The position numbers and the translations under genes are program-made. Below the pieces are notes generated by a model that had not been told where the DNA came from, did not search any database, and saw nothing but the letters and a program-made list of their open reading frames with translations. From positions 1 to 64,000 of the IMG/VR virus record IMGVR_UViG_3300044814_000017: 64,000 nucleotides of DNA, one strand, 5' to 3'. The stretch comes from a virus. Shown one piece after another: positions 3,068-24,506 of the stretch; positions within the stretch are counted from its first letter, which is position 1, and every line of letters begins with the position of its first letter.

Positions 3068-3717
3068 TATTCCCTCCCTTTTGCCATATGGATCGCCGGC
3101 ATTTGCAGGCAGTCCAGCTCAATAAGTTTCAATAGAATGGCAGTTGCAGCGCGGGCATCGCCCAAGCCGGTATGCTTCGCATCCTGCTCAATGCCGAAAT
3201 GGGTGCAACAATCGGACAGGCCAGGCCAGCCCTTTTTGCCATTCGCCTTTATGATGCCTAGGCCATGACAACTGCGCATGAGACAAGTGTTTTGAGTTTT
3301 GTTGAACATATCGTCCAGCCCAGCGCGCCGTAACTCGCCGCGAAGAATTTTGCAGTCGAATTGCGCACCGAAGGCGACGACTATTCGTCCGTCATTGATC
3401 GCGTTCCGATATTCTGATAGGGCTTCGGATATCTCGCGGCCGTGCTCATTAAGAAAGTCAGTCGTCAAGCCATTGATGGCGGCGGCCTCGTTGTCCATCG
3501 CCCAATTGTCAGGGCGGACATATAGCGCAACTTCGCGTTCAAATTGCAGGTTCTCATCAAGAAATATCATGGCCAATTCAGCAAGGCGAGGCTGGCCTTC
3601 GGCGTCGGCTGGGACTGGCCTACCCTCTGCGTCCTTATATTTTGGAAGTCCCGATGTTTCTGTATCTATCACCACATAGCGGGGCTTGTCGGATGTGGGC
3701 TGCGCTTGATCGTTCAT
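3067..3717 (-). CDS. DEDDh 3'-5' exonuclease (DnaQ-like)
   Basis: 216 residues. Exo I motif with DTETSGL at residues 18-24 provides the first catalytic Asp and Glu; Exo II is in VAFGAQFDCKIL around residue 118; Exo III is HTGLGDARAA around residue 186, giving the His and Asp of the DEDDh class. The length matches stand-alone epsilon-like exonucleases. It would remove nucleotides from 3' ends of DNA (or RNA) during phage replication or recombination. It sits in the same operon as the RecT/Bet annealase, and exonuclease plus annealase is a usual pairing, although this enzyme is not a classical lambda Exo/RecE partner. Confidence 0.85.
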   Translation of the reverse strand: MNDQAQPTSDKPRYVVIDTETSGLPKYKDAEGRPVPADAEGQPRLAELAMIFLDENLQFEREVALYVRPDNWAMDNEAAAINGLTTDFLNEHGREISEALSEYRNAINDGRIVVAFGAQFDCKILRGELRRAGLDDMFNKTQNTCLMRSCHGLGIIKANGKKGWPGLSDCCTHFGIEQDAKHTGLGDARAATAILLKLIELDCLQMPAIHMAKGRE

Positions 3718-3736
3718 GAGTTGGCTCCTGTGAGGG

Positions 3737-4165
3737 CTAGGAACGGCGCTGGATGCGCTCTAATGGATTTTGGCTCGCCTCTGCGACGAACGTAGGGTGC
3801 TTGATCTTCATGTGTCGGGCCATCTGCCCTACGGTGCGATTACAGCACGGGCAGACTCCAGCAGCGGAGCGTTTCTTGACCTTTGCTGCTTTGGCCCGTT
3901 CTGCGACTAGTTCCCGTTCCTTCGCCCGGATTTCGTCGTCCCGCTGGGCGAGTTGCTGTTTTATTAGGTCTCGTTCGCGGCGGGTTTTCTCGCTCTCAGA
4001 TTGTTCTTTGCTCCAGCCTTGGGAATGACCATTGCAGCAATGATGGTAGCCGCCTCTTTCGCGCTGGTTGTCCATCATTGCCTTTGGCGCGGTATAGGTG
4101 ACGCCGCACGTAATACAGGTTTGCCATTCGTGAACTGCGCCATTGATCAAAACAGTTCCACTCAT
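3737..4165 (-). CDS. Zinc-finger protein with central coiled coil
   Basis: 142 residues. Three parts: an N-terminal CxxC (CITCGVTY) with a later His/Cys pair (HHCCNGH); a charged coiled-coil stretch from about 55 to 100; and a C-terminal C2H2-like finger CPCCNRTVGQMARHMKIKH. Such proteins in phages usually bind nucleic acid. Start ATG at 4165 overlaps the upstream stop (ATGA). Specific target unknown. Confidence 0.65.
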   Translation of the reverse strand: MSGTVLINGAVHEWQTCITCGVTYTAPKAMMDNQRERGGYHHCCNGHSQGWSKEQSESEKTRRERDLIKQQLAQRDDEIRAKERELVAERAKAAKVKKRSAAGVCPCCNRTVGQMARHMKIKHPTFVAEASQNPLERIQRRS

Positions 4166-11428: not shown

Positions 11429-12820
11429 ATGGGTAAATACGAGGATTTTCTTACGGCGAAGCGATCAGTCGATCCGATGACTGGATTAGATAAGGTTGGG
11501 CGGCTACCGAAGTTTTTCAAACCACATCAATCGGATATCACAAAATGGGCACTACGGCGTGGACGTGCCGCAATATTTGCCGGTACTGGTCTCGGCAAAA
11601 CATTGATGGAATTGGAATGGTCGCGTCAGGTTTCTAAATTCACAGGCAAACCAGTTCTGATTTTGGCACCGTTGGCGGTATCGGCCCAGCATGTTCGCGA
11701 GGGCGAAAAGTTCAATATTCAGACTAAGGTGGTCCGATGGCAGAGCGAGGTCGTCGACGGGTTTTCAGTTACGAATTACCATAAGCTTAATCATTTTGAC
11801 CTATCGGAGTTCGGCGGCATCTGTCTGGACGAGTCGTCAATCCTAAAAAACACCGATGGGCATTACAGGTCGAAGCTAATCCGCGAGGCGGCGCAGATAC
11901 CGTTCCGGCTTGCGGCTACGGCTACGCCAGCGCCAAATGATTTTATGGAACTCGGCAATCACGCCGAATTTCTCGGCATCATGTCTTACACCGATATGCT
12001 CGCGACGTTTTTTGTGCATGACGGTGGGGATACATCGAAATGGCGTCTCAAGGGTCATGCGGAGGATGCATTCTGGAAATGGATGGCGTCTTGGGCGGTG
12101 ATGCTGCGGAAGCCATCGGACTTGGGATATGACGACGCCGGATATGACCTGCCGCCATTGCGGGAGTTTCAACACACGGTAGGCGTGCCATATGCGCCCA
12201 ATATTGATACTGGATTATTATTCCCCATGGAGGCTACGGGCCTCGGCGAACGCATCAAGGCGCGGCGCGGATCAATTGATAGCCGGGTCGAGATGGCGAT
12301 TTCACTGACGCCGCAGGATAAGCCGTTCGTGTGGTGGTGTAATTTGAACGATGAGAGCGCGGCTATTACGACCGGAATTCGTGGCGCGGTTGAATTGCGC
12401 GGGTCGGATGAGGATACAGAAAAAGAGCGAAAGATTATTGATTTTATCGAGGGGCGCACGCGGGTGCTTGTCACCAAAGCGTCGATCTGCGGGCATGGAC
12501 TAAACCTGCAACATTGCTCCGATACGGGTTTTGTGGGGGCCAGCGATAGTTTCGAGCAGACCTATCAAGCGGTGCGGCGGTTCTGGCGCTTTGGGCAGGC
12601 CAATCCAGTTAACGTGCATTTTATTGCGGCCGAAACCGAAGGTGCGGTTGTCGCTAACTATCGCCGGAAAGAGGCGGACGCCGACCGGATGGCTGCGGCG
12701 ATGGTTCGGCATATGGCAGACCTATCATCACAGAATGTTCGCGGACAGGTCAGGGATAAACTTGACTATCATCCGACCCTTAAAATGCAAATCCCGACAT
12801 GGGTAGGAGTTTCGATATGA
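11429..12820 (+). CDS. SNF2-type DEAD/DEAH helicase
   Basis: 463 residues. Walker A AGTGLGKT at 51-58, DEAH-like box DESS at 134-137, TATPAPND (motif III-like), and the C-terminal helicase half with VTKASICGHGLNLQHC and QAVRRFWRFGQ. This is the compact phage SNF2-like helicase, much shorter than cellular remodellers. It uses ATP to translocate on double-stranded DNA and is usually placed beside replication and methylation genes, as here. The stop overlaps the methyltransferase start. Confidence 0.85.
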   Translation: MGKYEDFLTAKRSVDPMTGLDKVGRLPKFFKPHQSDITKWALRRGRAAIFAGTGLGKTLMELEWSRQVSKFTGKPVLILAPLAVSAQHVREGEKFNIQTKVVRWQSEVVDGFSVTNYHKLNHFDLSEFGGICLDESSILKNTDGHYRSKLIREAAQIPFRLAATATPAPNDFMELGNHAEFLGIMSYTDMLATFFVHDGGDTSKWRLKGHAEDAFWKWMASWAVMLRKPSDLGYDDAGYDLPPLREFQHTVGVPYAPNIDTGLLFPMEATGLGERIKARRGSIDSRVEMAISLTPQDKPFVWWCNLNDESAAITTGIRGAVELRGSDEDTEKERKIIDFIEGRTRVLVTKASICGHGLNLQHCSDTGFVGASDSFEQTYQAVRRFWRFGQANPVNVHFIAAETEGAVVANYRRKEADADRMAAAMVRHMADLSSQNVRGQVRDKLDYHPTLKMQIPTWVGVSI

Positions 12821-13851
12821 ATGCTTTAGAGCATCCGAGTATCAAGGCGGTCGATCAGGTCATCACACCGGAATATGCGATTTATCAGGGCGATGCGTGC
12901 GAATTGATCCGTGGCATTCCCGGCGACTCGATTCCTTACGGCATTCATTCGCCACCGTTCGTTGGATTATATAAATTTTCTAATTCCGACCGAGACATTT
13001 CAAACAGCGATGGTGTTGGGTTTTGGGAACATTACCAATTCATCATTTCAGACTTGCTGCGAGTAACCCAGCCTGGCCGGCTGCATTCGGTTCACTGCAT
13101 GAATTTGCCGAGATCTAAAACGCGAGATGGATTTATCGGTATCAAGGACTTTCGCGGCGACGTAGTGCGGGCCTATGAGGACGCTGGTTGGTATTTTCAC
13201 TCCGAGGTTTGCATCTGGAAAGACCCTGTAGTGGCGCAGCAGCGCACCAAGTCGATTCGGCTACTGCACAAGCAGATCGTGAAAGACAGTTCAATGAGCG
13301 GCCAAGGGCTGGCCGACTACATCGTGACGTTTCGCAAGCCCGGAGATAATCTTGAGCCAATCGCTGGCATGTTTGATGAATTCTATGGGGATGGGCTGGA
13401 TATCAGCAGGGAAGCTTATGAGCGGCAGCGGCGATCTTGGACGGATGCGGGCGGTGCGGCTTGGTCTTACGAAATGTGGTGCTCGGTGTTGGTCTGGCAG
13501 CGGTACGCTTCGCCTGTATGGATGGATATCAAGCAGACAAACACATTGCAGTATCGGCAAGCGCGCGATGAGAAGGATGAGGCTCACATTTCCCCGCTGC
13601 AGCTTGATGTGATTGAGCGGTGCATTGACCTTTGGTCAAACCCCGGAGACGTTGTGTTGACGCCGTTTCTAGGGATCGGTAGCGAAGTCGTTGGCGCAAT
13701 TTCTGCTGGTCGACGTGGGATGGGGTTTGAATTGAAAGCCTCCTATTTCAAGCAGGCCATTCGCAATTGTGCCGATGTCAAGAAAAAGGAAGGTGGGCTT
13801 TTGGATTTTGTCGCTCGTGGCGATTTCGATGATGCGGTCGCGGCGGAATAG
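12817..13851 (+). CDS. DNA methyltransferase, N4/N6 beta class
   Basis: 344 residues from ATG 12817, which overlaps the helicase stop (ATGA) with GGAG upstream; a longer frame from 12799 is less likely. Catalytic motif IV SPPF at 45-48 precedes the SAM-binding motif PFLGIGSEVVGAI near residue 285, the permuted order of the beta group. TSPPF/SPPF is commonest in N4-cytosine enzymes but also occurs in N6-adenine ones. No restriction enzyme is adjacent, so it is probably a solitary modifier protecting phage DNA or altering host transcription. Confidence 0.85.
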   Translation: MNALEHPSIKAVDQVITPEYAIYQGDACELIRGIPGDSIPYGIHSPPFVGLYKFSNSDRDISNSDGVGFWEHYQFIISDLLRVTQPGRLHSVHCMNLPRSKTRDGFIGIKDFRGDVVRAYEDAGWYFHSEVCIWKDPVVAQQRTKSIRLLHKQIVKDSSMSGQGLADYIVTFRKPGDNLEPIAGMFDEFYGDGLDISREAYERQRRSWTDAGGAAWSYEMWCSVLVWQRYASPVWMDIKQTNTLQYRQARDEKDEAHISPLQLDVIERCIDLWSNPGDVVLTPFLGIGSEVVGAISAGRRGMGFELKASYFKQAIRNCADVKKKEGGLLDFVARGDFDDAVAAE

Positions 13852-17391: not shown

Positions 17392-17747
17392 TGCCAACCC
17401 TATCCAAAAGCGACCACCGTGCCGTAGTTCGCTACGCAATGGACCGAATAGACGAAGCATTGGCGCAAGCATTAATGCAAGATTTTTGCGCTGCAAATGG
17501 CATCCTGATCCACACCGTTCGGGATGCGAACAATTCGCCATGGGCGATGGATCAGCGTGTCCGGGTGGCGGTATTTCTCCGTAGCAAGCGCATCAAGCAT
17601 GTCGTGATCGCAAAGTGCATGCATCGGCACGTGGATATGATAAAATACTACACAAGTCCGACGCTGCGCCAGCGCAAGCGGGATTATAACCGGCTCAATA
17701 CCGGACGGTGGAGGGAGAGTGTCCAGCCCTTGGAGACGCGCCCGTGA
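17391..17747 (+). CDS. DnaA domain IV-like HTH protein
   Basis: 118 residues. RVRVAVFLRSKRIKHVVIAKCMHRHVDMIKYY resembles the C-terminal DNA-binding helix-turn-helix of DnaA (signature ending with HSTV), but the Ser/Thr of the signature are replaced. Similar stand-alone HTH proteins occur in phages near methylases and replication genes. Its stop overlaps the GTG start of the C5 methyltransferase (GTGA). Confidence 0.5.
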   Translation: MPTLSKSDHRAVVRYAMDRIDEALAQALMQDFCAANGILIHTVRDANNSPWAMDQRVRVAVFLRSKRIKHVVIAKCMHRHVDMIKYYTSPTLRQRKRDYNRLNTGRWRESVQPLETRP

Positions 17748-18556
17748 ACGTACTAGATTTATTCAGCGGCATTGGAGGATTTAGTCTTGGCCTCGAAAGA
17801 GCAGGAATGCGAACCGTCGCATTTTGTGAAATTAATCCATTCGCCCGACACGTCATCGCAAAGCATTGGCCAACTGTCCCTTGCTATGATGACATCCGAA
17901 CCCTCACTTACGAGCGTCTCGCCGCCAACGCCGCAACTGGCGACATCCAAATTGATGTCATCTGCGGAGGCTTTCCATGCCAAGACGTATCGTTCGCGGG
18001 AAGAAGATTGGGGCTGGACGGCGAGCGCAGCGGACTATGGTCTGAATACGCCAGACTTATTGGCGAGATTCGACCCAAAATCGTCATCGTGGAAAACACA
18101 CCAGGCTTGCTTTCTCTCGGAATGGGAATCGTTCTCGCAGACTTGGCCGCGCTCAGGTATGATGCAGAATGGCATTGCATACCAGCTTGCGCCGTTGGTG
18201 CGGATCATCTCCGGGATCGCGTCTGGATCATTGCTTGGCCCAGTGAGGCATATGCTTCCAACGTTGACGGTGAAGGGCAATTACAACGTCAAAGGCATGT
18301 CAAAAACCAGCGGAGACGGGCTGGCGACGGTTTTGCGGAGAACGCTTCCGACTCTGGTTGCTCACGATTACCGGGGAGGAGCGAAGCCGGAATCGGCGGA
18401 ACGCAAACAACTAGATACGGCTCGTGGATTAGACTTGCCATCAAGTCTGCGAATGATTTTCCCCGAGAGCACTGGAATCATAAACCCGTGCTGGGCCGAA
18501 GGTTACATGGGGTTTCCGATGGGAACTATATACATGACTCCCTTGGCTCATTGTAA
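17744..18556 (+). CDS. dcm: C5 cytosine DNA methyltransferase, 3' end displaced by insertion
   Basis: GTG start at 17744. SAM motif DLFSGIGGFSLGLERAG (5-21), catalytic loop GGFPCQDVSF with Cys79, ENTPGLL (ENV motif variant) at 117-123, and DRVWIIAW at 158-165. Genuine coding ends at Asp259 (GVSD, codon 18518-18520). Residues 260-270 and the stop come from an inserted element. The missing C-terminus with the conserved LGNAVVPQIPE helix lies at 19491-19586 and is in frame if the element plus one target copy is removed, giving 290 residues. As found, the enzyme lacks its terminal SAM-pocket helix and is probably inactive. Its DNA is shared with a second reading frame. Confidence 0.85.
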   Translation: MNVLDLFSGIGGFSLGLERAGMRTVAFCEINPFARHVIAKHWPTVPCYDDIRTLTYERLAANAATGDIQIDVICGGFPCQDVSFAGRRLGLDGERSGLWSEYARLIGEIRPKIVIVENTPGLLSLGMGIVLADLAALRYDAEWHCIPACAVGADHLRDRVWIIAWPSEAYASNVDGEGQLQRQRHVKNQRRRAGDGFAENASDSGCSRLPGRSEAGIGGTQTTRYGSWIRLAIKSANDFPREHWNHKPVLGRRLHGVSDGNYIHDSLGSL

Positions 18557-18566
18557 CACTTCGTGA
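17772..18566 (+). CDS. Second-frame ORF overlapping dcm
   Basis: 264 codons in the +1 frame of the methyltransferase gene, open over almost all of it. Segments FHAKTYRSREEDWGWTAS, SSSWKTHQ, WPRSGMMQNG-AYQL-PLV and a C-terminal MGFP match a family I recall from phages, often found with or labelled as DNA methylases, that ends in MGFPIGWTEL. The insertion cuts it after GFPMG; after precise excision the frame continues as GFPIGWTELK and ends at 19566. So both frames look selected. Function unknown; a target-recognition or accessory role for the methylase is possible. Confidence 0.55.
   Translation: MEDLVLASKEQECEPSHFVKLIHSPDTSSQSIGQLSLAMMTSEPSLTSVSPPTPQLATSKLMSSAEAFHAKTYRSREEDWGWTASAADYGLNTPDLLARFDPKSSSWKTHQACFLSEWESFSQTWPRSGMMQNGIAYQLAPLVRIISGIASGSLLGPVRHMLPTLTVKGNYNVKGMSKTSGDGLATVLRRTLPTLVAHDYRGGAKPESAERKQLDTARGLDLPSSLRMIFPESTGIINPCWAEGYMGFPMGTIYMTPLAHCNTS
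18521..18552 (+). repeat. Left terminal inverted repeat of the 962-bp element
   Basis: 32 bp, identical to the reverse complement of 19451-19482; beyond it the two arms retain only partial similarity for about 15 bases. Starts GGGAACTATA at the boundary with TTTCCGAT. Confidence 0.9.
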
Positions 18567-18577
18567 CTGCGCGGTAC

Positions 18578-18605
18578 TTGCGTATACGCAGGATTAGCGT
18601 ATGTT
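18578..18605 (+). promoter_or_regulatory. Candidate promoter inside the 962-bp element
   Basis: TTGCGT (18578-18583), 16-base spacer, TATGTT (18600-18605). The -35 overlaps a perfect 12-bp palindrome, TGCGTATACGCA (18579-18590), a likely binding site for a dimeric regulator such as the HTH protein encoded in the element. Sequence match is moderate. Confidence 0.35.
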
Positions 18606-18631
18606 GTGTCTATCAGAACCGGAGCAAGCAA

Positions 18632-18919
18632 ATGGACAGCCCATGGGATAGACATCAGGAAATTGAGGACATCCCGCTTATTGAGCGCACCTTTCTTGCT
18701 CGGTGTCCGAACGGAAGAATGACGGCGGTCAATCGCTTTGACTACAATCTGTCGATCTGCACAGGCGGCGATAGCTACGTCCAATGCGTCGATACCGGGC
18801 ATATACAATCCAAGCGGCTTACCTTGTTGACGGAAGAAGAACAGGCTGCCTTTGTGGCGCTAAATGACCGACCTACATACGATGACTGGATTATAGAATT
18901 GCGCGGGGCACCCTTGTGA
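18632..18919 (+). CDS. Element gene 1: unknown protein
   Basis: 95 residues from ATG 18632, preceded by CGGAG; the frame is open further upstream but that part lies in the promoter region. Features: LIERTFLARCPNGRMTAV, a Cys-containing central strand region and LLTEEEQAAFVALNDRPTYDDW at the end. No family recognised. Overlaps the next start by 4 bases, so the element carries a compact phage-style operon. Confidence 0.55.
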   Translation: MDSPWDRHQEIEDIPLIERTFLARCPNGRMTAVNRFDYNLSICTGGDSYVQCVDTGHIQSKRLTLLTEEEQAAFVALNDRPTYDDWIIELRGAPL

Positions 18920-19107
18920 CCGCCACCCAATACAAAGCCACTATAAAGGCGCTGGGCTTGTCCCAGCACCTCGCGGGCGATTGGCTTGGCATCGGCCGGC
19001 GAACCTCTCAGGGCTACGCGCTGGGCGAGTATCCCGTGCCAGAACCGGTGGCCAAGCTGTTGCGGCTTTGTGTGAAGTTGAAACTTAAACCTGCCGACGT
19101 GAAATAG
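18916..19107 (+). CDS. Element gene 2: small HTH regulator
   Basis: 63 residues, GTG start overlapping the preceding stop (GTGA). LGLSQHLAGDWLGIGRRTSQGYALGE is a Cro/CI-type helix-turn-helix of the kind common in rhizobial prophages, with a PVPEPVAKLLRL helix after it. Likely autoregulates the element promoter or acts on phage operators. Confidence 0.7.
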   Translation: MTATQYKATIKALGLSQHLAGDWLGIGRRTSQGYALGEYPVPEPVAKLLRLCVKLKLKPADVK

Positions 19108-19116
19108 GAGAGATAG

Positions 19117-19293
19117 ATGGCCGAACTCCACCTTGTGGTTGGGAAAGACAGCTACGGCGTACAGCGTGTCTATGGGGAGCATCGATCCCTTGATGTTGCC
19201 GAGACGATGGCAAAGGAAGAAGCCGCTACTTACGTCAGGTCTAGGCCAGATACCGGCCCGCTATCGCGTTGGGAATTTGAAATTCTGGAATAG
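19117..19293 (+). CDS. Element gene 3: 58-residue protein
   Basis: ATG 19117 preceded by TAGGAGAG. Beta-rich N-terminus (LHLVVGKDSYGVQRVYGEH) and helical middle. Function unknown. Good ribosome site and tight packing with its neighbours support it. Confidence 0.55.
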   Translation: MAELHLVVGKDSYGVQRVYGEHRSLDVAETMAKEEAATYVRSRPDTGPLSRWEFEILE

Positions 19294-19297
19294 GTGC

Positions 19298-19435
19298 ATG
19301 GGCGACGAACGCGACATTATCGAAAAGCTGCTAGACTTCGAGCGTTGCGGTCAAACGGCAGGAACGCGGGTTAGCCTGCGAGAATGCGCGGCTGTCGAGA
19401 TATTCAGGCTCAGGCAAGAAGTCGAACGACTTTAG
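19298..19435 (+). CDS. Element gene 4: 45-residue acidic helix protein
   Basis: ATG 19298, four bases after the previous stop. Begins MGDERDIIEKLLDFERCG and ends EIFRLRQEVERL, resembling the many small phage proteins of the form 'IVERL...EIERLR', two of which occur at 32700-33150. Ends 15 bases before the right inverted repeat. Confidence 0.5.
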   Translation: MGDERDIIEKLLDFERCGQTAGTRVSLRECAAVEIFRLRQEVERL

Positions 19436-19450
19436 CCACAAAGGACGTAA

Positions 19451-19482
19451 AATGAGCCAAGGGAGTCATGTATATAGTTCCC
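19451..19482 (-). repeat. Right terminal inverted repeat of the 962-bp element
   Basis: Mirror copy of the left repeat, ending TATAGTTCCC directly before the second TTTCCGAT copy at 19483-19490. Confidence 0.9.
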
Positions 19483-19490
19483 TTTCCGAT

Positions 19491-19586
19491 AGGCTGGACA
19501 GAATTGAAGCTCTCGGCAATGCCGTCGTCCCGCAAATTCCGGAAATCATCGGGCGGGCAATCATGAAATACAATTCCGCAAAATAA
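19491..19586 (+). pseudogene. Displaced C-terminus of dcm (and of the overlapping frame)
   Basis: Frame 19491-19583 encodes RLDRIEALGNAVVPQIPEII..., the conserved terminal motif of C5 methyltransferases, with no start codon of its own. In the other frame the same bases encode GWTELKLSAM... and stop at 19564-19566. Both are the natural continuations of the reading frames broken at 18520. Confidence 0.88.
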
Positions 19587-21200: not shown

Positions 21201-22067
21201 GTGAAAAAGAGAATTGAGGTTCATTCGCAGGTGGAATTCGACGCCTGCGTAAAACTCGGCAACATCGCCGTTGTGGTCAACTGTAGCGTCGTGGCGTGGG
21301 AGAATTCCAGCGTCGAGGCGTGGGAGAATTCCAGCGTCGTGGCGCGGGGGAATTCCAGCGTCGTGGCGCGGGGGAATTCCAGCGTCGTGGCGCGGGAGAA
21401 TTCCAGCGTCGTGGCGTGGGGGAATTCCAGCGTCGTGGCGTGGGAGAATTCCAGCGTCGTGGCGCGGGGGAATTCCAGCGTCGTGGCGCGGGAGAATTCC
21501 AGCGTCGTGGCGTGGGAGAATTCCAGCGTCGAGGCGTGGGGGAATTCCAGCGTCGAGGCGCGGGGGAATGTGTTCGTCCGGCTTTGGTCCGCGCTTTCGA
21601 TCAAGGCTTCGCTGCGCGTCGCGATCATGGTGCATGGCACCGCCGCAACGCTTGAAGGCGGCAATCAAATCCAGGCGCTCAATCCGCAGATCGGCTCGGA
21701 ATGGTGCGAGTATTTCGAAATTGATCCGGCGACCACGCCGTTCGTGATTCCGGATATCGACGCCGCCATCTTAAAATCCATCGAGGCCAACAAAGCTGCG
21801 GGCACCAACGGCCTAGATATGGGCAGTTGGCACGGCCAGGAGTGCGATGAAACCAACTGGTGCGACACGACGCATTGCCGCGCTGGCTACGCCATCTGTC
21901 TCGCTGGAAAGGCTGGATTTGAATTGGAGCGCAAAGTTGGGGCTGAAACTGCTGGTAAAATGATCTATGCGGCAAGTCGACCGGACAAACCGCTTCCGGA
22001 TTTTCACGCCAGCAATATGCAAGCGATGGAAGATATCATTGCTAGCGCGCGCAATGGCGGTAGTTGA
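21201..22067 (+). CDS. 24-bp-repeat beta-solenoid protein with Cys-rich C-terminal domain
   Basis: 288 residues, GTG start after AAAGGA. Residues 29-124 are twelve copies of an 8-residue unit, S-S-V-V/E-A-W/R-E/G-N, ideal for a regular beta-helix with Val facing inward. The C-terminal domain (about 190-288) contains MGSWHG, CDTTHCRAGYAICLAG and a terminal helix with HASNMQAMEDI, a module that recurs in phages without known function. Only repeat positions 4, 6 and 7 vary, so the repeats are young or homogenised. Its stop overlaps the next HTH gene. Confidence 0.7.
   Translation: MKKRIEVHSQVEFDACVKLGNIAVVVNCSVVAWENSSVEAWENSSVVARGNSSVVARGNSSVVARENSSVVAWGNSSVVAWENSSVVARGNSSVVARENSSVVAWENSSVEAWGNSSVEARGNVFVRLWSALSIKASLRVAIMVHGTAATLEGGNQIQALNPQIGSEWCEYFEIDPATTPFVIPDIDAAILKSIEANKAAGTNGLDMGSWHGQECDETNWCDTTHCRAGYAICLAGKAGFELERKVGAETAGKMIYAASRPDKPLPDFHASNMQAMEDIIASARNGGS
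21285..21572 (+). repeat. Tandem repeat, 12 x 24 bp
   Basis: Unit AGCGTCGTGGCG + TGGGAGAATTCC with changes at three sites only (GTG/GAG, TGG/CGG, GAG/GGG). The last unit diverges at its end (AATGTG). All three plus-strand frames stay open through it because the unit has no stops, producing long shadow frames. Confidence 0.95.
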
Positions 22068-22963: not shown

Positions 22964-23416
22964 ATGACCTCCCCCACCCTCCTATCCCTGGCAGGCAGAG
23001 TAGAATCTCTGACGGGGCGCGATCGGAATATTGCGAACGACGTCCTGTACGCGTGCGGTTGGACGACGCATGAAATCGGTGAAGGTGATAATCGCACCAC
23101 GATTTGGACAGCGCCGCGTGGCGAAGAGTTTACTGACGGCGATCAACCCGACCCGACCGCCTCACTCGACGCCGCGATGACGCTGGTGCCGGAAGGCTGG
23201 GGCTGGAGCGTTGGCGATGTTCATGGGCCGCTAGAAGCATATTCTGGCAGCAGCGTACCTTGGGCTGAGATTTGGACCCGCGATGATCGCGACGTTCAAA
23301 TCCCCGACATGAACTGGGATGGTTGCCGCAACCATCTTAATGCCGCCACGCCTGCGCTCGCACTAACCGCCGCTTCCCTCCGCGCCCGCTCCGCATTGGA
23401 GGCCAGTCATGGGTAA
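22964..23416 (+). CDS. Conserved phage accessory protein, unknown
   Basis: 150 residues. Two blocks (DVLYACGWTTHEIG and MTLVPEGWGWSVGDVHGPLEAY), ending ATPALALTAASLRARSA, resemble small phage proteins that often occur in several copies per genome. Its last codons overlap the tnpB-like start by 8 bases. Confidence 0.55.
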   Translation: MTSPTLLSLAGRVESLTGRDRNIANDVLYACGWTTHEIGEGDNRTTIWTAPRGEEFTDGDQPDPTASLDAAMTLVPEGWGWSVGDVHGPLEAYSGSSVPWAEIWTRDDRDVQIPDMNWDGCRNHLNAATPALALTAASLRARSALEASHG

Positions 23417-24506
23417 GGTGTTGACCTACAAATATCGCATTAAAGACCGGGGCACCCGTAAGGCGCTGCGACGGCATGCGATAGGCATCAATCAGGTCTG
23501 GAACTACCTCAACGGTTACCAGCGCGATATCGAGGAGCGCTATAAGGCCGGCAGGCCTAGCCGCAGATGGCCCAACCATTTTGACCTGACCGGCATGGTG
23601 TCCGGCGTTTCCAAAGAGCTTGAGGTTTCTTCCATCTCTATTGGAGAGGTCTGCCGCACCTATGTGCAGAGCCGGAACGCCAACAAGCGCTCGTTACGCT
23701 TCCGGTCCAGCTTCGGTGCCCGAAGGTCACTCGGTTGGATACCGTTCCGCCGCCCGACTACGGATGGCAACAGCATCACTTACTTGGGAAAGAAATATCG
23801 TTTCTTTGGAGCGAAACGTCGCCCGGTTCCTAATGTCATTAAGACCGGCGCGTTTGTCGAGGACGCGCGAGGCCGCTGGTACGTCTGCTTTACGGTCGAG
23901 GTGCCAGAGCTTCCCGCGGGCGTCGGAGCGATCGGCATAGACCTTGGTCTCAAGACGCTGGCGACCCTCAGCAACGGGGAAACCGTTCCGGCCCTCCAAC
24001 ACTACCGTCGATACCAGGACGCGCTAGCGACCGCCCAGCGGGCCGGGAATAAGCGTCGGGTATCCGCCATTCACGCTAAGATCGCGAACGCGCGCCGCGA
24101 TCATATCCACAAGGCGACCACCAAGATTGCGCGCGAAAACCGTTTGATCGTCGTCGGCGATGTGAACGCGGCTCAGCTTAAGCAGACCAAGATGACGAAG
24201 TCCGTCTCGGATGCAAGCTGGACGATGTTCCGTAAAATGCTTGAATACAAAGCCAGTAGGCACCAAGCAATTTACGTTGAAGCCGACGAACGATTCACTT
24301 CCGTAACCTGTTCTGAGTGCGGTGCGCTCAGTGGCCCGAAAGGTCAAAAAGGGTTGCGAATAAGACAGTGGGAATGCTCGGACTGCGGAGCGTCGCATGA
24401 TCGCGACGTGAACGCAGCCCGAAATATCCTACGTGTCGGGCAAAGCACTTTGCCTCATGCAGATGAAAGCCGGGCGTTCCGGATAGGTGCGACTCATGCC
24501 GGATAG
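23409..24506 (+). CDS. tnpB: TnpB-like RuvC protein, canonical RuvC-II Glu absent, no transposon ends
   Basis: 365 residues, full TnpB length. RuvC-I GIDLGLKTLATLS with Asp178; RuvC-III HDRDVNAARNIL with Asp333; zinc ribbon CSECG (301-305) and CSDCG (323-327). At RuvC-II the usual VVEDL reads VVGDV: Gly250 replaces the catalytic Glu. Glu294 in ADERFTS, just before the ribbon, may substitute, as in TnpB groups reported with a rearranged site. The gene overlaps its neighbours at both ends (8 and 11 bases), leaving no room for IS605 ends or a downstream guide-RNA region. Probably a captured, perhaps domesticated, RNA-guided nuclease or binder. Confidence 0.8.
   Translation: MGKVLTYKYRIKDRGTRKALRRHAIGINQVWNYLNGYQRDIEERYKAGRPSRRWPNHFDLTGMVSGVSKELEVSSISIGEVCRTYVQSRNANKRSLRFRSSFGARRSLGWIPFRRPTTDGNSITYLGKKYRFFGAKRRPVPNVIKTGAFVEDARGRWYVCFTVEVPELPAGVGAIGIDLGLKTLATLSNGETVPALQHYRRYQDALATAQRAGNKRRVSAIHAKIANARRDHIHKATTKIARENRLIVVGDVNAAQLKQTKMTKSVSDASWTMFRKMLEYKASRHQAIYVEADERFTSVTCSECGALSGPKGQKGLRIRQWECSDCGASHDRDVNAARNILRVGQSTLPHADESRAFRIGATHAG

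Follow-up and report, generated by a model that had tools for sequence, protein, structure and literature searches.

The DNA analysed here (the window, 64,000 nucleotides) belongs to a virus record of 70,208 bp whose genes include those for the terminase large subunit, portal, tail and replication. Within it, a C5 DNA methyltransferase gene is interrupted by a 962-bp stretch that has perfect inverted ends, carries four ORFs and is bounded by an 8-bp direct repeat. The features of the locus are as follows:

17744-18520, plus strand: 5′ part of the interrupted C5 DNA methyltransferase gene (PF00145, E 2.9e-38; restored frame)
18513-18520, no strand: left target-site duplication, TTTCCGAT (from the sequence)
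18521-19482, no strand: very probably a non-autonomous IS1595-type element (mobile insertion cassette), 962 bp (from its ends, the duplication and the sharing of the ends)
18521-18552, plus strand: left terminal inverted repeat, 32 bp, perfect
18521-18566, plus strand: left end and subterminal stretch, 46 bp, 87% identical to the L088 end at 3695-3740 (reverse strand)
18632-18919, plus strand: cargo ORF1, 95 aa, no relative found in searches
18916-19107, plus strand: cargo ORF2, 63 aa, HTH-like, homologues at 56% in L302 and at 54% next to the end in L153
19117-19293, plus strand: cargo ORF3, 58 aa, no relative found in searches
19298-19435, plus strand: cargo ORF4, 45 aa, no relative found in searches
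19451-19482, minus strand: right terminal inverted repeat, 32 bp, perfect
19452-19586, plus strand: 44-codon ORF (from the ORF list), with its ATG in the right terminal repeat, in frame into the 3′ part of the methyltransferase
19483-19490, no strand: right target-site duplication, TTTCCGAT (from the sequence)
19491-19586, plus strand: 3′ part of the interrupted methyltransferase gene (restored frame, alignment of relatives)

Boundaries, interrupted gene and cargo

The initial annotation described 32-bp perfect terminal inverted repeats, which are correct to the base, and an 8-bp duplication, TTTCCGAT, which is indeed exact on both sides. When the inverted ends are widened to 18521-18555 and 19448-19482, 34 of 35 bp match. 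The outer 22 bp of the ends are absent from the rest of the window even with 3 mismatches allowed (shuffling expectation 0), no second copy of the element was found in its own record, and no DNA match to it was found among 50,697 phage records. Removal of 970 bp restores, as proposed initially, an open C5-methyltransferase frame (...GVSDRLDRIEALGNAVVPQIPEIIGRAI), with GVSD followed directly by RLDRIEALGNAVVPQIPE at the junction. Comparison with dcm homologues finds viral relatives uninterrupted at this junction: in a tblastn search of the methyltransferase against viral contigs, 49 alignments span it, several without a gap there, and the L246 methyltransferase, for example, is continuous at the insertion point (GVSDRVDRVGSLGNAVVPQIPE). 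The closest relative of the enzyme is 57% identical, and the search for near phage relatives with an empty site, suggested initially, yielded none at the DNA level. The insertion point precedes the conserved C-terminal GNAVVPQ block, and methyltransferase activity is expected to be lost after insertion; the cost seen in this copy is a broken phage methyltransferase gene. The alignment of another dcm homologue (L253:3705-4327) is broken by several hundred bp before GNAVVPQ. This gap is without the ends of the window element's family and is possibly another insertion into the same gene.

Elsewhere in the window, a second methyltransferase gene at 12799-13851 (N6_N4_Mtase, E 2.2e-15) is apparently intact. 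An ORF at 21201-22067 contains a long in-frame repeat of SSVVARGN / SSVVAWEN units and has no Pfam match, and a TnpB-like protein is encoded at 23409-24506 (PF07282 Cas12f1-like TNB, PF01385 OrfB_IS605), with no obvious TnpA among the neighbouring ORFs.

The four cargo ORFs (95, 63, 58 and 45 aa) follow one another on the plus strand, with overlapping or closely spaced ends, and occupy most of the element. They had been described as phage-like, which holds for ORF2 only; among the four it alone has detectable phage relatives, its sole match in deposited phages being to a Bradyrhizobium phage, and it is HTH-like, in keeping with the single HTH gene reported earlier. ORF1 has no relatives in the phages or viral contigs searched, and its single-sequence structure model is too poor for use (mean pLDDT 40.6). 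ORF3 and ORF4 have none in the collections searched. Beyond ORF2, the cargo was not found elsewhere, and no second insertion of the same cassette is known. The earlier statement that the element lacks a transposase also stands: the element contains no transposase ORF of any kind, the whole 70,208-bp record contains no IS1595 transposase, and a transposase remnant was sought inside the element and not found. Of the promoter that had been proposed, the 12-bp palindrome TGCGTATACGCA at 18579-18590 is real, but about 0.2 palindromes of this length are expected by chance in 962 bp, and a sigma-70 scan of the element finds no promoter either at the palindrome or upstream of ORF1. One terminator-like site is present, near the shuffle mean. 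A moron is an ORF with a promoter and a terminator of its own on either side.

Shared ends and the IS1595 family

The outer 22 bp of the ends are present in a further 11 viral contigs, several of them with unrelated context. L004 has this end too, facing a partner at a distance of 1900 bp and with a separate duplication (AAAATTAA); a 307-aa protein encoded between the two ends carries PF12762 (DDE_Tnp_IS1595, E 6.7e-46) and the PF12760 zinc ribbon. For the family scan a degenerate end was used, the consensus GGGAAYTATATANWTNACTCCC, which occurs in at least 117 bacterial and at least 120 viral stretches; two exact end variants, searched as well, added further viral stretches. Among the matches listed, pairing of facing ends gives 208 candidate pairs, and the 8-bp duplication is exact in 131 of them and off by one base in a further 4; in the control, flanks of different elements are identical in 0.05% of comparisons. 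Once identical copies are dropped, the matches listed contain at least 121 distinct elements (81 from viral contigs, the window counted, and 40 from bacterial contigs), of which 59 encode an IS1595-type DDE transposase in full length, 7 encode part of one and 55 encode none, where the sample is bounded by these matches and by the end pattern, ORF calls are mechanical and the counts are of sequences, not of independent events. The same ends with a transposase between them, for which the initial annotation had recommended a search, are thus found many times (at least 59 full-length).

The same element occurs at different duplicated sites in L069/L318 (99.7% identical), L137/L321 (94%) and the transposase-less L305/L307 (91%), and 24 ends are present in one Acidobacteria MAG and 6 in Sphingopyxis indica. 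Among large ORFs flanking the viral loci (n = 88), at least 7 match a profile for the large terminase subunit, and proteins for portal and replication occur too. Insertions show no preference for interrupting genes, as judged by frame restoration (35 of 64, against 44 of 64 random positions). The family is frequent in tailed-phage contigs yet nearly absent from 50,697 deposited phage genomes. The small, phage-sized cargo genes of the window element, and an HTH gene with relatives in phage contigs, would suit a phage moron gained through illegitimate or homologous recombination, with flanking repeats that are coincidental or regulatory. That account deserves almost no credence, being refuted by ends, a shared orientation and 8-bp duplications that are common to at least 120 other elements of mostly unrelated content.

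A profile search of two family transposases finds PF12762 (E about 1e-46) and PF12760 in both. The family transposases are pairwise 51-100% identical (median 65%), with a conserved zinc-ribbon and DDE consensus over 58 of them. Their best-ranked plasmid matches are at most 46.4% identical, most of them annotated as IS1595 family transposases; the best-ranked annotated plasmid IS1595 transposases reach at most 44.7% identity to that of the subgroup. Deposited phages give three matches, all below 36%. A small ORF, conserved and some 45 aa long (LDAIADKVLAYRPKPK..., e.g., L302:2640-2777 and L153:147-284), usually adjoins the transposase; it is present in 49 of 66 elements with a full or partial transposase, and in L057, L067 and L073 the next cargo protein apparently has it as an N-terminal fusion.

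The weakness of the three deposited-phage matches, together with the lack of a transposase in element and record, might be taken to indicate a new phage-specific class that has no kinship with known insertion sequences and depends on a phage recombinase for its movement. This is extremely unlikely, since the same ends flank IS1595-type transposases in both phage and bacterial contigs, and two annotated plasmid IS1595 relatives have related ends (GGGGATTATGTATTTGACAA and GGCGATTATATCCTTTACGC) with an exact 8-bp duplication each. The passengers of these plasmid elements include PIN or VapC genes, and their ends and duplications place the group with known IS1595-type passenger-carrying elements.

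A non-autonomous cassette and its relatives

Ends, duplication and cognate transposase place the window element in the known IS1595 family, and we regard it with high confidence as a mobile insertion cassette, a non-autonomous member of the IS1595-family subgroup with ends GGGAAYTATATANWTNACTCCC. The initial proposal of a transposed, transposase-less element with cargo is thereby retained; its designation as a new class of mobile moron is not, transposase-less cargo derivatives being known already (PMC3129680). The IS1595 family has been described (PMC8101967). Like its zinc-ribbon groups, the subgroup has 8-bp, mostly A/T-rich duplications, ends starting with GG and transposases with PF12760 and PF12762. 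Unlike an IS1595 insertion sequence proper, the window element has no ORF for DDE_Tnp_IS1595, either within it or in the 70-kb record, although the same ends flank full-length transposases in at least 59 distinct elements and the duplication TTTCCGAT is exact.

Mobile insertion cassettes carry passenger genes. They have IS ends, lack a transposase and rely on a cognate one (PMC3129680, PMC6542083). The window element, with IS-like ends, passengers, no transposase and an existing cognate autonomous IS, resembles cassettes such as MIC231, but it is phage-borne and IS1595- rather than IS231-derived, and its sister cassettes hold DNA-modification genes. The transporter ISs of the IS1595 family, tISCpe8 and MTnSag1, also combine IS1595 ends with passenger genes (PMC5704250), but they encode their own transposase. 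Mycobacteriophage mobile elements (MPME) are likewise very small, have inverted ends and interrupt phage genes in phage genomes. However, MPME1 (439 bp) brings at one of its ends an extra 6 bp whose origin is unknown (PMC3029335), whereas the window element has a clean 8-bp duplication and is related to IS1595.

The nearest autonomous end belongs to L088, a 2668-bp element in a Xanthobacteraceae MAG, and the L088 end that resembles the left 46 bp of the window element is the one on the 5′ side of the transposase. Homologues of ORF2 lie inside L302 (56%, E 1e-16), a 1298-bp transposase-less element with the duplication TTTCGCAG, and beside an end in L153 (54%). The two are 99.7-99.8% identical in their common parts, and internal losses in L302 remove the transposase. 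The start of the L153 contig runs into the C-terminus of a transposase, the remainder of which lies beyond the contig. In L302, the terminal repeat is fused straight onto the last codons of the transposase (remnant LDSLFVSGTKGKRLTYKGLIQ). Because of this joint and the identity to L153, L302 is best read as a cassette caught soon after the loss of its transposase, and it would show how such cassettes originate. Transposase remnants persist also in L210, L131 and L112.

The same relatives bear on whether the window element is instead a MITE, a miniature and practically non-coding offshoot of the same IS in which the ORFs are chance frames. It is short and non-autonomous, three of its four ORFs have no homologue and some sister elements measure just 171-330 bp. 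However, its 962 bp are mostly filled by four consecutive one-strand ORFs with overlapping or closely spaced ends, and one of them has its homologue within another cassette with the same ends, so that a MITE is very unlikely.

For a mobile insertion cassette, knowledge of the IS1595 family suggests movement in trans. An IS1595-type zinc-ribbon DDE transposase would be supplied by an autonomous relative residing in the host, in a prophage or in a phage that infects the same cell. It would recognize both inverted ends, and the cassette would be inserted at an 8-bp staggered cut, duplicating TTTCCGAT and breaking the C5-methyltransferase gene ahead of its GNAVVPQ block.

Modification genes in sister cassettes

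At least 17 of the 55 transposase-less elements hold a DNA-modification gene by Pfam: N6_N4_Mtase is found in ten, and C5 methylase, Type ISP, D12, MT-A70, Dam and Mom in others, Mom being carried by two family members. As a control independent of Pfam, the amino-methyltransferase motif [DNS]PP[YF] was counted in cargo ORFs of 120 aa or more. Of 29 such ORFs from viral elements without a transposase, 10 contain it (two of these being related), compared with 9 of the 692 ORFs in the flanks (odds ratio 40, p 1.5e-10) and with 1 of 23 cargo ORFs from viral elements that have a transposase. The larger gene of a 678-bp cassette (L005:6285-6962, duplication CTATTCTG) encodes a Mom-family DNA-modification protein, and this cassette is identical across three viral contigs and one Acetobacteraceae MAG contig (also L009, L044 and L385). 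In L005 (Mom), L023, L079, L164 and L172, the terminal repeat GGGAAYTATATANATGACTCCC provides the start codon of the cargo, whose proteins begin MTP..., and its GGGA is positioned like a ribosome-binding site. In transposase-bearing elements, the long frames that open in the terminal repeat probably run antisense to the transposase and were discounted.

The enrichment of modification genes in transposase-less members suggests that counter-restriction genes may pass between phages by way of transposons. The cargo of the window element matches none of the DNA-modification gene types of the sister cassettes, and a start codon within the terminal repeat does not account for its genes. To judge from the DNA-modification cargo of those cassettes, it most likely provides an accessory function that may benefit the phage, such as counter-defence; for the window copy the case is weak, since none of its genes has a homologue whose function is known. 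A broader reading, which we hold tentatively and at somewhat less than an even chance, is that the phage-adapted IS1595 subgroup constitutes a transposon system for counter-defence genes, with the window cassette as the vehicle of a new four-gene counter-defence/regulatory operon. Autonomous copies would give the transposase and transposase-less cassettes would jump between unrelated phages, many of them made up of just one gene, for a DNA methyltransferase or Mom, in several cases started by the repeat-internal ATG.

The principle of transposase-less cargo cassettes is already known; what looks new is a phage-borne subgroup rich in modification genes. The literature covered, which is partial, gave no account of such a subgroup in phages or of modification genes as its characteristic cargo. 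Apparent near absence from deposited phage genomes would explain how the family was overlooked. Anti-restriction genes swap fast among phages, an exchange usually explained by morons and recombination. A dedicated, directly testable route would be offered by a large family of transposons whose ends are ready-made and whose transposase-less members show a 40-fold odds enrichment of the amino-methyltransferase motif.
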